This document shows, one piece after another, positions 6,969 to 22,248 of a stretch of DNA of 64,000 nucleotides. Origin of the DNA: Actinopolyspora mortivallis DSM 44261 (GTDB lineage: Bacteria; Actinomycetota; Actinomycetes; Mycobacteriales; Pseudonocardiaceae); assembly GCF_000384035.1 (NCBI RefSeq), contig NZ_KB913024.1, positions 3,125,228-3,189,227 on the forward strand, written 5' to 3'. The stretch's first letter is position 1; each line of letters opens with the position of its first letter. Both the position numbers and the translations under genes were made by a program. The notes under the pieces are model-generated. The model ran no database searches, was not told the origin of the DNA, and saw only the letters and a program-made list of their open reading frames with translations.

Positions 6969-7591
6969 CAGTCCACCTCCACACCACGGTGGGTGCGCTC
7001 CACCAGACGCAGCTGCTCGGCGGTACCGACCGCGCGAACCACGCTGCGTTCCCAGGCGAGCACCTCACGACGCACCCGTTCGGAAGCGTCCCGACCACAG
7101 CCGAGCGCGTAGACGTAACAGATCCTGTTCGCCCGGTCCAACTGCAACACGAAGTTCCCCGGGGCCAACGACACCGCGTTCGCCACCATCGCCATCAGGT
7201 GGTCGGAGTCGGTGACCAGTCTCACCTCCACGATGGCCGCGCGCGCCCGGGGCCCCTGAGCCACCGCGTGCCAGGACACCCGGGCGGTGGAAACGACCAG
7301 GTCCCACGCCAGCCGCATCACCAGACGCACGATCCCCCAGGGACGCAACCTGATGTCGGTGACTATCGGCGGAGCGGGGAAGAATCCCGTCACGAGCACT
7401 CCCACCAGCACCCCGAAGAGCGTCGTCCCGAGATCGTAGGTACCCCACAGCAGCAGCCACACCAGCACCAACCACGCCAGCAGCGGAATTCTGCGCACCA
7501 ACCGCCGCAGGGGGTGTCCTGCGCTGACGACGTGTTCCCCGCCCGGGCGGGAGTTCCGGGGCGGGATCGCGTGTTCAGCCACCGGAGCCAC
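6968..7591 (-). CDS. mnhE: Na+/H+ antiporter subunit E
   Basis: A 207-residue MnhE subunit. After a polar 30-residue N-terminal extension there are two closely spaced hydrophobic helices ('LAWLVLVWLLLWGTYDLG' onwards), then the cytosolic domain with 'SLAPGNFVLQLD', the region in which all MnhE proteins carry a Ser/Pro-Gly turn. The start lies inside the end of mnhD (17-base overlap). The extension before the first helix is longer than in Bacillus MrpE, so a start further in is possible, but no better ribosome site is seen. It is part of the mnhABCDEFG operon. Confidence 0.9.
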   Translation of the reverse strand: MAPVAEHAIPPRNSRPGGEHVVSAGHPLRRLVRRIPLLAWLVLVWLLLWGTYDLGTTLFGVLVGVLVTGFFPAPPIVTDIRLRPWGIVRLVMRLAWDLVVSTARVSWHAVAQGPRARAAIVEVRLVTDSDHLMAMVANAVSLAPGNFVLQLDRANRICYVYALGCGRDASERVRREVLAWERSVVRAVGTAEQLRLVERTHRGVEVD

Positions 7592-17857: not shown

Positions 17858-19087
17858 TCAGGGCAGGGACCTGCGTAGCACGGGAGCGCAGAGCGCGGCG
17901 ACCACGGCGATCAACAACGCCGCCACCACGATCACCGTGGCCGGGGAGGTGACCTCGGCCAGCGGACCGGCCGCCGCCGCCCCCAAGGGCATCAACCCCC
18001 AGGCGAAGACCCGGTAGGCGCTGGTGACCCGCCCCATCATCGGCCCCGGAGTCAGCCGCTGGCGGTTGGCCGAGGACAGCACGTTCCACGTTCCGGCCCC
18101 GAGTCCCATGACGAAGTAGGCGCCCCACGCGGCGCCGGGCAACCGCACCAGTTCCAGCGCGGCGACTCCCCCGGCCAGCACGAGCAGCGCCCCGGTCATC
18201 ACCGTCGCCCCGCCGAAACGGGCGGACAGCCCCGCCGTCGTCCGCGAGGCCACCAGCGTGCCGGCCGCGGTGCACACCAGCAGCGTGGGCACCGTCGAGG
18301 GGGCGAGCCCGAGGGACTCCAACACGAACAACACCGCGATGGCGTTGACGGCGCTGGTCAGCAGCGCCACCAATCCCACCGTGCCCACCACGGCGCGCAG
18401 CCCGGAACTGCTCAGCACGAAAACCGCCCCCTGGCGGATCTCCCCGGCCATCGAACGCCTTTCCGCCGTGCGTACCGGTTCGACCTCGGGTGAGACCCGC
18501 AGTATCCACACCGCGGCGAAACCGAAGGCCAGCGCGGTCACCGCGAAACACAGCTCGGGCCGCCAGGCGAACAGCCCCGCCGCCGCCAACGGGCCGGCTA
18601 TCTCCACCCCGATCGTCTCCGCCCCCACGAAACGTCCGTTGGCCCGTTCCAGTTCCCGCTCACCGGCTGCCGAGACCAGCAGGGACTGCGTCGCCGAGTC
18701 GGCGAACGTCTCCGCGCTGCTGAGCAGGAACGCGCAGCCGAGCAGTACGAACGTTCCCGCTTGGCCACTGTGGACGAACCACACCAGCAGCAGGGTCACC
18801 ACGGCGCGGAAGGAGTGCGCCGCCACCAGCGTGCCGCGACACCGCATCCGGTCGACCAACGCCCCGGCGGGCAGCGCGATCAGCAGCCACGGCACCACCT
18901 CGGCCGCGGCCACGGCCGAGACGGACACCGGGTCACGGGTACTGACCGCCGCGTACAACGGCAGGGCGGCGGCACGCACTCCGTCGGCCACCGACGTGGC
19001 TGTCCAGGTGGTCAGCAACCGTCGGAACGGTTCCCCACGCACTCCGTGAACAGGTCGCTCCGCGAGATCCTCCGGGGCACCGCTCAC
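17858..19087 (-). CDS. MFS transporter, probable exporter of the RiPP locus
   Basis: A 409-residue major facilitator with 12 hydrophobic segments, of the EntS/Bcr-like efflux group. The loop 2-3 motif is seen as 'GALVDRMRCRGTLVAAH', and there is a helix-8/9 counterpart 'TTAGLSARFGGA'. The central loop is short, as in drug and siderophore exporters. It starts with GTG at 19087, with GGAAGG upstream, 39 bp after the DUF5825-like gene and in the same direction, so it is likely the last gene of the RiPP-type operon. The probable role is export of the modified peptide, or self-protection; this comes from position only. Confidence 0.8.
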   Translation of the reverse strand: MSGAPEDLAERPVHGVRGEPFRRLLTTWTATSVADGVRAAALPLYAAVSTRDPVSVSAVAAAEVVPWLLIALPAGALVDRMRCRGTLVAAHSFRAVVTLLLVWFVHSGQAGTFVLLGCAFLLSSAETFADSATQSLLVSAAGERELERANGRFVGAETIGVEIAGPLAAAGLFAWRPELCFAVTALAFGFAAVWILRVSPEVEPVRTAERRSMAGEIRQGAVFVLSSSGLRAVVGTVGLVALLTSAVNAIAVLFVLESLGLAPSTVPTLLVCTAAGTLVASRTTAGLSARFGGATVMTGALLVLAGGVAALELVRLPGAAWGAYFVMGLGAGTWNVLSSANRQRLTPGPMMGRVTSAYRVFAWGLMPLGAAAAGPLAEVTSPATVIVVAALLIAVVAALCAPVLRRSLP

Positions 19088-19126
19088 CGTTTCACGCCTT
19101 CCGCACTACTCACGACGGACGGTGGG

Positions 19127-19729
19127 TCACACCGCCATCGCCGGTACCGGCCAGCGACGGACCCGCGCGGGGGCCCACCACTCCAGGGAGCCCAGCCGCA
19201 CGAGGAGCCCACCGGCCGCGAACCGCTCCCGCGCCTCGGAAGCGACCCCGCTCGGGGCGGCTCCGTCCGCCAGCAGGCGCGCCGCACGGACGAGCTCCGG
19301 ATCACTCACCGTGTAGCATTCCATGGCCGCGCCCCTCCTGTCCCGGATCTGGAGGAAACCCGGTCCCTCCCGCTGGACGCATCGACACGGGAACCAGGAC
19401 TCGGCCCAGGTGGTGACGTCCACCCGGACCGCCCCCGAGGCCCGCTGCGGCGGAGGAAGATGGGACAGCACCGTCCAGTCGAAACCCGTCTCCTCGACGC
19501 GCAGTTCCCACCGGCAGGAGACCCCCCAGGCGCCGAGTTCACGGAGCAGCGTCAGCGGAGCGGGATCGGCTCCCCCGCCGAGACGGACGGGATCCCGGAC
19601 GACCACACCGCGCACCCCCGCCCCGAACAACTCGGCGGCCTGGGTGACCGGATCGCTGCCCACCACCTCGGTACCGAGCGACCTGACGGCCACCGAGGAA
19701 CTCGCGGACTCGCGCAGCAGAACCCTCAC
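19127..19729 (-). CDS. DUF5825-like partner of the radical SAM RiPP enzyme
   Basis: A 200-residue soluble protein that I relate to DUF5825, a family found beside RiPP-maturation radical SAM C-methyltransferases in actinomycetes. The assignment rests on context and general layout: a Rossmann-like N-terminal half ('LFGAGVRGVVVRDPV'), a central 'WELRVEETGFDW' and a C-terminal 'GPGFLQIRDRR' strand-rich part. The GTG at 19729 is preferred because GGAGG sits 6 nt upstream; the earlier GTG at 19735 touches that ribosome site directly. It lies 25 bp after the radical SAM gene. The role may be precursor binding or enzyme partnering, but no function is known from sequence. Confidence 0.65.
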   Translation of the reverse strand: MRVLLRESASSSVAVRSLGTEVVGSDPVTQAAELFGAGVRGVVVRDPVRLGGGADPAPLTLLRELGAWGVSCRWELRVEETGFDWTVLSHLPPPQRASGAVRVDVTTWAESWFPCRCVQREGPGFLQIRDRRGAAMECYTVSDPELVRAARLLADGAAPSGVASEARERFAAGGLLVRLGSLEWWAPARVRRWPVPAMAV

Positions 19730-19754
19730 GTACACCCTCCGGGAAGTCGGCGGA

Positions 19755-21590
19755 TCAGCGAAGCTGAAGCAGTTCCTGGTTGTTGTCCTCGGCGACCACG
19801 TGCACGTACTCGCCGGACTCGGTGAACACGAGCCCGGAGGCCGCCCATTCGTCGAGCTTGGTGGTCAACTTCGCGTCCTGCCCGAAACGGCGTCTCAGGT
19901 AGTCCGTCGAACGCGGACGGGCGAGGGTGCGGAAGAGCTCCGTCTCGAAGGAGCCCGTGAGCACCAGCTCCGTCTCGGGGAAACCGGGCCGGTCACCGAG
20001 GACCACGATCTCCTCGCCCGAGTCCACGTACTTCAGCCAGCTGCGCGAGTGGGCCCGCGACCACTCCCGCACCGCGTGCAGCAGCTCCCGCTCCACCTGT
20101 CCGCCGATGCCCGCCGGAGGTGTCTCGAACAGGTAGGCGAGTTCGGCCAGCTCCTCCGGGGGCAGGTCGTAGGTGATGGCGTACTGCTCGTCTGGGGAGC
20201 GTTCCGGGAACCCCAGCTCGGGAACGTTGAAGTACGGGCTGAACCTCTCCAGGGCTATGCGGCTCGCGCCGTCCATGGGGGGCAGGTGGGCCAGGGCGGG
20301 GAACTGGCTCAACAGCGGAAGGTAGTCCTCCTCCTTCTCGCCGGGGAACCCGTACAGGAAGTTCCACATCACCGTCAGCCCCAACGAGCGGGCGTCGCGC
20401 AGCATCCGCACGTTCTGACAGCCGCCCACGCCCTTCTTCATGATGTCCAGCACGCGCGAGCTCAGGTTCTCGATGCCCGGCTGTACCTGTACCACCCCGG
20501 CGCGTACGAGTTCCCGCAGCTGCTCGTAACGCATGTTGGACTTGATCTCGCACTGGATCCTGAAGTCGTGTCCCGAGTCGGCGATCCAGGGCAGCAGTGT
20601 GCGCAGGTACTCCATGTCCAGGATGTTGTCCACCAGGTACACGTCCAGCATCCGGTGTCGTCCGGCCAGCGTGACCAGTTCCTCGTGGAAACGTTCCGGG
20701 CTCTTGCTGCGGAAGGTCATGAACGAACCGTTCAGCCCGCAGAACGTGCAGTGGTGTTTCTCGCCCCACCAGCACCCCCGGGCCCCCTCCAGGACGAGTT
20801 TCGGTTCCACCCACGCCGAGGCCGCGCTGCGCTCGAAGCGTTCCGGATATCCGTCGAAGTCGGGGGCCACGATCCGGGAGGGGTCCAGCGGGGTGGCGGT
20901 CATGGGGTTGACGACCGGCTGTCCCGAGTCGTCACGCCAGCACAGTCCCGGCACTCCGGACAGTTCCTCCGCCTGGTCCATCCGTTCGAGCAGGCCGGGG
21001 AAGGCGACCTCCCCCTCCCCACGAACCACGTAGTCGACACACCGGAAGTTGCGGTGCCAGGCGGCGCCCTGCGCTCCGTCGCAGTTCGCCCCGCCCAGCA
21101 CGACCCGCACGTCGGGGCGCAGTCTGCGCAGTTCCGCCGCCAGGGCCAGCGAGGCGGTGTTCTGCTGGAACGTGGTGGTGAACCCGACGATCCGACCACA
21201 CGTGCGGGCCAGCTCGGCGGCGTACTCCCCGATCCACTCGGCCGCGCCGGGTTGGAGACGTTCGCACAGATCCAGCCGTTCCGCGGGCAGTTCCGGGGAG
21301 CGACGTCGCCGGAACTCGGCCACGCGCCAGCTCGTGTGCCCGTACAGCGCGGCGGAGAAGACCCAGTCCCCACAGCCCTGGAAGTAGGACTCCAGGGAGA
21401 AGAAGTCGTAGTCGTGTACCCCCAGCCCCATGCGCTCGTGCAGCCAGTCGAAGAAGTCCAGGTTCGCGTTCAGCACCCGCACGGAGTACGGACCGTCCGG
21501 GGTGGACTCCACAGCGGACTTGAGGATCCCGCAGGCCAGCGAAGGATACTCCAGGGAGGCCCACGGCATGTTGACCAGCGTGATTTCCAC
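19755..21590 (-). CDS. RiPP-maturation B12-binding radical SAM C-methyltransferase
   Basis: A 611-residue enzyme with an N-terminal cobalamin-binding Rossmann domain (residues about 1-215, including 'VVLGGANCDGAQG') and a radical SAM core. The iron-sulfur ligands form the unusual spacing Cys273-x7-Cys281-x2-Cys284 ('CWWGEKHHCTFCG'), which marks the family that methylates unactivated carbons in ribosomal peptides. 'YLVDNILDM' and 'EIKSNMRYEQ' belong to the barrel, and the last 100 residues form a winged-helix-like end. The GTG at 21590 has GGGAG 6 nt upstream. An ATG at 21656, overlapping the stop of the small upstream frame, would add 22 residues encoded by a hairpin and is less likely. It needs SAM, cobalamin and a 4Fe-4S cluster. 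Confidence 0.88.
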   Translation of the reverse strand: MEITLVNMPWASLEYPSLACGILKSAVESTPDGPYSVRVLNANLDFFDWLHERMGLGVHDYDFFSLESYFQGCGDWVFSAALYGHTSWRVAEFRRRRSPELPAERLDLCERLQPGAAEWIGEYAAELARTCGRIVGFTTTFQQNTASLALAAELRRLRPDVRVVLGGANCDGAQGAAWHRNFRCVDYVVRGEGEVAFPGLLERMDQAEELSGVPGLCWRDDSGQPVVNPMTATPLDPSRIVAPDFDGYPERFERSAASAWVEPKLVLEGARGCWWGEKHHCTFCGLNGSFMTFRSKSPERFHEELVTLAGRHRMLDVYLVDNILDMEYLRTLLPWIADSGHDFRIQCEIKSNMRYEQLRELVRAGVVQVQPGIENLSSRVLDIMKKGVGGCQNVRMLRDARSLGLTVMWNFLYGFPGEKEEDYLPLLSQFPALAHLPPMDGASRIALERFSPYFNVPELGFPERSPDEQYAITYDLPPEELAELAYLFETPPAGIGGQVERELLHAVREWSRAHSRSWLKYVDSGEEIVVLGDRPGFPETELVLTGSFETELFRTLARPRSTDYLRRRFGQDAKLTTKLDEWAASGLVFTESGEYVHVVAEDNNQELLQLR

Positions 21591-21616
21591 CGTCGTCTCC
21601 CGGTTCGAAGAGGTGG

Positions 21617-21646
21617 GCGGATGGGGCGGGCTCCCGCCCCATCCGC
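21617..21646 (-). terminator. Perfect hairpin between candidate precursor and radical SAM gene
   Basis: Two 14-nt arms (21617-21630 and 21633-21646) pair perfectly around a 2-nt centre and contain only G/C-rich pairs. No T-run follows on the minus strand. It lies 6 nt after the stop of the 26-codon frame. A stem of this kind between precursor and enzyme genes can stabilise or attenuate the transcript so that peptide is made in excess. Confidence 0.75.
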
Positions 21647-21652
21647 GCGGAC

Positions 21653-21733
21653 TCATGCCAGCGAGATCCGCACGCCGACGGGTCCGTTCCCTCCGGAACC
21701 GTCCGGATTGTTGTGCACGGTCTTCGTCTCCAC
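21653..21733 (-). CDS. Candidate RiPP precursor peptide (26 residues)
   Basis: A short frame starting with GTG at 21733 and ending with TGA at 21653. The ribosome site is excellent (GGAGG at the proper distance). The peptide starts METKTVHNNPDG, continues SGGNGPVG and ends VRISLA. It lies just ahead of the radical SAM C-methyltransferase, separated by a perfect hairpin, in the position where this enzyme family usually has its substrate gene. There are no Cys, Ser/Thr-rich or repeat cores, so modification at Val, Ile, Leu or Pro carbons would fit a methyltransferase. No export signal is seen. Small size and lack of a known family keep this a prediction. Confidence 0.6.
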   Translation of the reverse strand: METKTVHNNPDGSGGNGPVGVRISLA

Positions 21734-22248
21734 GGAAATCCACCTCCCTCCGGGACACGCGTACGGGGAAACGGTGAGAACCGAAAAACCCCCGAGTCGA
21801 AACGATTCGACCGAAACGATCCTGCTCGTTCCCTGCCGGAACGAGGTTCAGCACCGGACACTAACCAAGGAAACCGGGATTCGTTCTGATCCGTTAGCAG
21901 GAAATTTCCGGGCACACCGTTGCCCCGTTCGTGCCATCTCCGCTACCGGACGTCGACGGATGCGGCGCGAGCGTCGCGGCCCGTAGCTTCCCCGAGCCGT
22001 CGGGCGAGGACCGCGCGGGGTGCTGTGGCCCCGGATGCGCGCACCGGACAAACGCGGAGGAAACGAACACCGCAAAACACGAAAAGTGACGAAGAAAAAG
22101 CGTTCCGTGTCCACTATGGAACGCGTTTCCCCCGGAGCCCCGCGTTCCGAGAACGCGATCTCGACGTGGTTCGTGACCTCGTCCCCTCCCCGGCGACCCG
22201 GACCGGGGCGTGCGCCACGGAAAACCGACTGCCGAGTTCCCGCGGCTC
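21734..22248. other. Intergenic region upstream of the RiPP locus
   Basis: About 515 bp. It must contain the promoter for the precursor and its operon, possibly within the A-rich stretch near 21760-21880. A minus-strand terminator for the glycosyltransferase gene lies within it and is listed separately. No further gene of recognisable family is seen in either direction. Confidence 0.45.
22095..22124 (-). terminator. Rho-independent terminator after the glycosyltransferase gene
   Basis: Arms GCGTTCC (22100-22106) and GGAACGC (22118-22124) with an 11-nt loop. On the minus strand the stem is followed by TTTTT (22099-22095). It separates the glycosyltransferase transcript from the RiPP operon. 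Confidence 0.75.

Follow-up and report, generated by a model that had tools for sequence, protein, structure and literature searches.

The 64,000-nucleotide window analysed here, i.e. the whole stretch of DNA from positions 3,125,228 to 3,189,227 of contig NZ_KB913024.1 of the halophilic actinomycete Actinopolyspora mortivallis DSM 44261, carries on its minus strand a small operon that likely directs the formation of a ribosomally synthesized and post-translationally modified peptide (RiPP). Reading from 21733 down to 17858, a 26-codon frame is followed by an inverted repeat, the gene for a B12-binding radical S-adenosylmethionine (SAM) C-methyltransferase, the gene for a DUF5825 protein and that for an MFS transporter, with gaps of 25 and 39 bases between the three larger genes. 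The initial annotation had listed these parts together with the ribosome site of the short frame, the perfect hairpin and a C-x7-C-x2-C cluster motif in the enzyme, and their order, strand and coordinates were all borne out. The short frame (21653..21733; GTG start at 21733, TGA stop at 21653) encodes METKTVHNNPDGSGGNGPVGVRISLA, and the ribosome-binding site AGGGAGGT (21742..21749) lies 8 bases ahead of its start. Its product comprises a leader (residues 1-10, METKTVHNNP, 21704..21733), which follows or comes close to the family pattern Mxxxx[VI]xN[DNS]P, a spacer, and a presumed core (residues 17-26, GPVGVRISLA, 21656..21685). The peptide matched no Pfam or NCBIfam model, and among the 15-80 codon frames of the window two match the leader pattern used, namely the precursor frame and one unrelated frame.

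For the comparison with other genomes, searches for DUF5825 gave matches in 21 of 100 relatives, 16 of 394 genomes of the class and 37 of 390 genomes of the family. From these, 56 DUF5825 regions were taken, with the matching genomes G244, G557, G600 and G610 left out and L039, L042 and L044 giving no enzyme match, and an enzyme search of named genomes contributed the best 80 of 517 relatives. After L111-L117, L122, L129 and L187 had been dropped, whose enzymes are identical to others included, 122 distinct enzymes remained. Twelve loci, the window counted, share the gene order of the window (hereafter window-type loci); five belong to Actinopolyspora, six to genus g26 (five of them Saccharopolyspora) and one, L032, to another genus of the family. 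The precursor frame lies 135-161 bases ahead of the enzyme start in all 12, and it encodes 24-26 amino acids with a variable spacer rich in Gly, Ser and Asn and the core V-R-[IV]-S. The five Actinopolyspora peptides read M-E-x-K-T-V-[HY]-N-N-P, the variable spacer, GPVGVRISL and then A or K; the C-terminus of the g26 copies is GVR[IV]SK or TVRVSK. Pairwise comparison of the five Actinopolyspora copies gave 32 synonymous and no nonsynonymous codon differences in core residues 17-25, where no amino acid is changed, 23 and 11 in the leader, 6 and 30 in the spacer, and 4 and 4 in the last codon (leader plus core: proportions of synonymous and nonsynonymous differences, pS 0.389 and pN 0.034); although these pairs partly depend on one another, the trend is unmistakable. 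Because the frame is kept at one place in 12 loci and its codons change in a protein-like manner, it is a real gene. Thus, the suggestion that the short frame should recur upstream of radical SAM/DUF5825 pairs in related genomes, with a conserved C-terminal half, proved correct. A different conserved short gene, which might have been the precursor instead, did not emerge: no alternative frame with a ribosome site recurs throughout the seven window-type loci compared, up to 700 bases upstream, a search that did not extend further downstream, and one such frame is common to the close pair L028/L030 only. Hence, the assumption that the 26-codon peptide is the substrate of the adjoining enzyme gained support from the conserved position upstream of the enzyme pair and from the protein-type codon constraint, and the peptide is very probably its raw substrate.

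The enzyme (19755..21590, minus strand like all features described here) matched TIGR03975 (E 8e-171) with 569.5 bits over residues 3-598 of 611, above the curated cut-off of 281.85 bits; in Pfam it matched Radical_SAM, while B12-binding stayed just below its cut-off. The Cx7Cx2C [4Fe-4S] motif at residues 273-284 (Cys 273/281/284; 20739..20774) is present in 122 of the 122 distinct enzymes. With its cobalamin-binding Rossmann domain, followed by a radical SAM barrel with the three-Cys motif, the protein has the make-up of a class B radical SAM methyltransferase. Its C-terminal residues 505-611 (19758..20078) are predicted to fold into a winged-helix-like domain similar to PqqD and the RiPP recognition element (RRE): in hhalign the domain reached 90.7% (E 1.3e-6) against 30 PqqD-family sequences, compared to 0.0-0.2% for five column shuffles and 0.2 and 11.9% for two other parts of the enzyme. 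The sequence of the DUF5825 protein (19127..19729; PF19142, E 3e-57) found two weak matches only among solved structures (E 0.38 and 1.4), and its C-terminal part (model residues 115-181, 19187..19387) showed a tentative fold similarity to TbiB1, which binds the leaders of lasso peptides. The best reading of these models is that the RRE-like C-terminal domain of the enzyme holds the leader, perhaps helped by DUF5825. The MFS protein (17858..19087), assigned by family match, is the presumed exporter. The host genome of 4.23 Mb, a single contig, contains one match each to TIGR03975 and to DUF5825 (PF19142).

The leader is not restricted to the window-type loci. In a quick maximum-likelihood tree, from which the wrecks L034 and L035 were omitted and which carried a long-branch warning that includes L032, the enzymes of the 12 window-type loci group in a single clade with Shimodaira-Hasegawa-like approximate likelihood ratio test (SH-aLRT) support of 100, nested within a set of 97 rows that also has an SH-aLRT of 100. 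A leader-family peptide, with the above pattern or one close to it, was found upstream of 92 of these 97 enzymes; 71 distinct-enzyme loci were recognized by pattern and 19 by reading, giving 90, and a less strict inspection brought two more, L143 and L178, of which L178 has HDDP in place of HNDP. The five without such a peptide are L126 and L167, whose contigs end 106 and 37 bases upstream, as well as L096, L174 and L177, and the same looks applied to the 25 more distant enzyme loci found the leader in none. The commonest precursor form in Streptomyces resembles MQKDIIHNDPLAGDEENRKP-GIGITITVP-FRNADEGDEE. Streptomyces clavuligerus, which we take to be the source species of clavusporin, has on plasmid pSCL4 an operon of MFS, alpha/beta hydrolase, the peptide MQKDVIHNDPLAGDEENRKPSVGITITVPFRNAEDADED, TIGR03975 enzyme and DUF5825; this peptide is missing from the incomplete gene table and is presumably the published clavusporin precursor. 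Some variants of the peptide were also seen. L093 and L094 encode leader-family peptides (MKRRSVRNDPI) with a long C-terminal tail and totals of 54 and 49 residues, and four Streptomyces loci (L144, L158, L172, L188) have two tandem leader-family peptides with alternating Val at their ends upstream of the enzyme at 7001, MEKTVVENDPQIDDPDSALVTVSVGVSF and MEKTVVHNDPQMENRKDVDSTVISVMVVVSF in L144. Moreover, A. xinjiangensis (G008) possesses a second, distant TIGR03975/DUF5825 pair (L045, 6121-8565 and upstream) with the unrelated peptide MAIKRVEIKNRTRGVCRYVIRTSVSKTKTSS, to which the Cys-bearing peptide MAIKKVRLEKSVTGTCRYLVPIKTQARTVKKH of L102 and L103 is similar; the distant pair and the Cys-bearing peptides look like another RiPP subclass.

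These relations bear on the statement of the initial annotation that the locus belongs to a class of which hardly any product, or none, has been characterised. With regard to the kind of system it is out of date, because a B12 radical SAM/DUF5825 pair C-methylates amino acids of the clavusporins, as described in the relevant part of PMC12257519; since, in addition, the leader family spans 92 of 97 enzymes, the operon, judged by its sequence, is of the already known clavusporin type. For the GVRIS core in particular, no published product was found in the open-licence literature, including a search with the precursor letters. Judged on those Streptomyces loci that were taken for the clavusporin (mpc) operon, the window has in common with it a TIGR03975 B12 radical SAM enzyme followed by DUF5825, an MFS transporter, a short precursor that carries the family leader and is encoded ahead of the enzyme, and a hairpin between precursor and enzyme genes. 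However, the MFS gene is the last one in the window type and the first one in clavusporin-type operons, the precursors have 24-26 instead of mostly 39-42 residues, the core V-R-[IV]-S has no follower whereas the commonest clavusporin-type core reads P-[GS][IV]G[IV]T[IV]T[IV]P-FRNAEE, and the enzymes form a separate clade. Furthermore, the clavusporin operon includes MpcP, a prolyl oligopeptidase that removes the leader according to the section concerned in PMC12951456. In most Streptomyces, Micromonospora and Saccharothrix loci, genes for a prolyl oligopeptidase (PF00326) and an MFS protein precede the precursor, while no such peptidase was found in any of the 12 window-type loci within upstream spans of 4.9 kb or more (1,223 bases only in L097). 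It was likewise not found in the tandem-peptide loci L144, L158, L172 and L188 or in further examples from other branches such as L130, L155 and L162; therefore, its absence from the window-type loci need not be a loss. In our view, the window-type operons represent a branch of their own among the clavusporin-type RiPPs, with a cationic core and no clustered peptidase.

A plain clavusporin orthologue, processed in trans by a prolyl oligopeptidase and serving the same surfactant role in development (the title of Zhang et al. 2025, doi 10.1038/s41589-025-01882-8, names surfactants promoting bacterial development), would fit the common leader and enzyme pair as well as the Pro ahead of the core in Actinopolyspora and L032 (GP-VGVRIS), and the host genome, which has PF00326 at seven places, none inside the window, indeed encodes an unlinked prolyl oligopeptidase with 37% identity to a clustered one. 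We nevertheless consider it rather unlikely. This peptidase is a core gene present in 10 of 10 Actinopolyspora genomes; it was ruled out as a dedicated partner because genomes without the operon have it as well, although it could still act. In addition, the short core is positively charged, Pro is missing from the corresponding place in Saccharopolyspora, and the operon is dispensable in the genus, since three of 10 Actinopolyspora genomes are without it and two have wrecks only. In all 10 genomes the operon site is bordered by the same two genes, for a glycosyltransferase and a flavodoxin-like protein. Five of them have an intact operon (the window, G002, G003, G007, G008), the sister genomes G005 and G009 (L211, L212) retain pieces of enzyme and DUF5825 genes with the peptide region gone from both, G001 has scraps only, and in G004 and G006 nothing recognisable is left. 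The same flanks together with intact, wrecked or absent states indicate that the operon has probably long occupied this site and was lost repeatedly, which fits a dispensable product.

The core design provides hints on the modification. Among 36 hand-chosen distinct representatives, whose sequences are related and thus not independent, the aliphatic residues (V, I, L, M) after the leader form 22 pairs at i,i+2 and none at i,i+1 in the 11 window-type peptides, and 90 and 43 such pairs, respectively, in the 25 others; in each group the difference was matched by none of 5000 shuffles. The window type preserves the alternation (V-x-V-R-I-S-L) with Arg, Ser and mostly Lys in between. As a separate observation, the 23-residue leader-family peptide MEKDVIENDPLGKVQEEKIGFEW of Kribbella antibiotica (L162) is nearly without aliphatic core and breaks the alternating pattern. 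Clavusporins reportedly have a hydrophobic core, and the window-type cores, with Arg, mostly Lys and no acidic residue, depart from a hydrophobic, mostly neutral one; a few Streptomyces cores also have Lys (L131, L132). Proteusin precursors, on the other hand, have long, nitrile-hydratase/Nif11-like leaders, from which the 26-residue peptide without family match differs, as does the operon by its DUF5825 partner. Nevertheless, the proteusin enzymes PoyB and PoyC of polytheonamide synthesis are likewise B12 radical SAM proteins, and PoyC, as the pertinent section of PMC11285071 states, shares the Cx7Cx2C motif and methylates Ile and Val. Because the core alternates its aliphatic residues and PoyC acts on these two amino acids, we predict Val21 and Ile23, and perhaps Val19, as methylation sites. 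The same source describes for bottromycin radical SAM methyltransferases the C-methylation of Val, Phe and Pro in a RiPP, which is like the activity proposed here; that precursor, however, has an N-terminal core and a C-terminal follower, and no DUF5825 is named in the part of PMC11285071 concerned. In YHxYxY biphenomycin-like clusters the pair recurs as second B12 radical SAM enzyme plus DUF5825 and is joined, according to the portion of PMC12257519 on them, to an MNIO and another B12 radical SAM enzyme, whereas the window operon is flanked by the glycosyltransferase and flavodoxin-like genes. Given that B12 radical SAM enzymes are versatile, PbsB for example cross-linking ortho-tyrosines in the account of PMC12257519, and that Arg is invariant in 12 of 12 window-type cores, the pair might modify the peptide otherwise than by Cβ-methylation, e.g. 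at Arg, at Pro, in the backbone or by a PbsB-like cross-link. We regard this as clearly unlikely; the clavusporin work links the DUF5825 partner to C-methylation, the pbs cluster as outlined in PMC12257519 names no DUF5825, and the core has no aromatic residue for a PbsB-like cross-link.

Between the peptide stop and the enzyme start lies an inverted repeat with perfectly matching arms of 14 bases, GCGGATGGGGCGGG/CCCGCCCCATCCGC (21617..21646). Folding of this gap, done for loci with a pattern-matching peptide, predicted a strong stem for every one of the 12 window-type loci and for the majority of the others that were folded, the stems listed outside the window type being unrelated in sequence; in L144, L158 and L172 there was no excess over shuffles, which preserve base composition alone (z 0.2, 0.2 and -0.1). 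The arms were aligned by hand because a plain MAFFT alignment of the region was poor, and in this alignment, which leans towards pairing, 92.2% of the cells pair. Four of ten pairs are changed on both sides, a number as high in 6 of 500 shuffles, and the covariation score was reached by one of 500; the outermost pair fails in five of nine distinct rows. A regulatory role of the short frame, as a leader peptide whose translation governs the hairpin by attenuation, with the enzyme acting on another substrate, would be compatible with its position directly before a strong, covarying hairpin, but this reading is very improbable and was rejected because the constraint falls on amino acids, most of all in the C-terminal core, and furthermore the N-terminus is common to longer peptides of Streptomyces and others with printed stems unrelated in sequence, inspection found no T-run behind the window hairpin, and the peptide has no single-amino-acid stretch. 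Further upstream, the element GAAATTTCCTGCTAACGGATCAGA (21885..21908), which adjoins the palindrome GGAAATTTCC, shows almost complete conservation among the five intact Actinopolyspora copies and represents a probable promoter/operator region. The idea of a regulon was dropped, as a genome scan allowing up to three mismatches returned a single match, the operon's own.

Collectively, our data make it likely that the window encodes a small RiPP operon of clavusporin type. Its 26-codon gene would provide a precursor in which a ten-residue leader is followed by a spacer rich in Gly, Ser and Asn and by a short core centred on V-R-[IV]-S, and this leader may be bound by the PqqD/RRE-like winged-helix domain at the enzyme C-terminus, probably together with DUF5825. 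The enzyme would then use methylcobalamin and a 5'-deoxyadenosyl radical to methylate the alternating Val and Ile residues at their unactivated Cβ, yielding tert-leucine (tLeu) and β-methylisoleucine. The hairpin behind the peptide gene might let the peptide message exceed that of the enzyme, and export of the modified peptide would fall to the MFS protein, its trimming to a protease whose gene lies outside the operon. A tentative and somewhat doubtful extension of this proposal would give the window type the rank of a separate class, in which the product, G-(tLeu)-R-(β-methyl-Ile/tLeu)-S, is short, linear and cationic and has a non-surfactant function, two RREs (the enzyme C-terminus and the RRE-like half of DUF5825) read one ten-residue leader, and no leader peptidase is dedicated to the pathway.

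As precursors of B12 radical SAM C-methyltransferases go, the peptide is very small, and with its relatives it forms a clean natural test set with fixed leader, variable spacer and nine-residue core; therefore, how a peptide Cβ-methylase reads its substrate and selects its sites can be tested directly with synthetic 26-mers. The findings further offer leader reading as a candidate role for the unexplained partner DUF5825, and suggest that the enzyme pair of the clavusporins acts on several distinct cores that follow one design, with an aliphatic residue at every second place.
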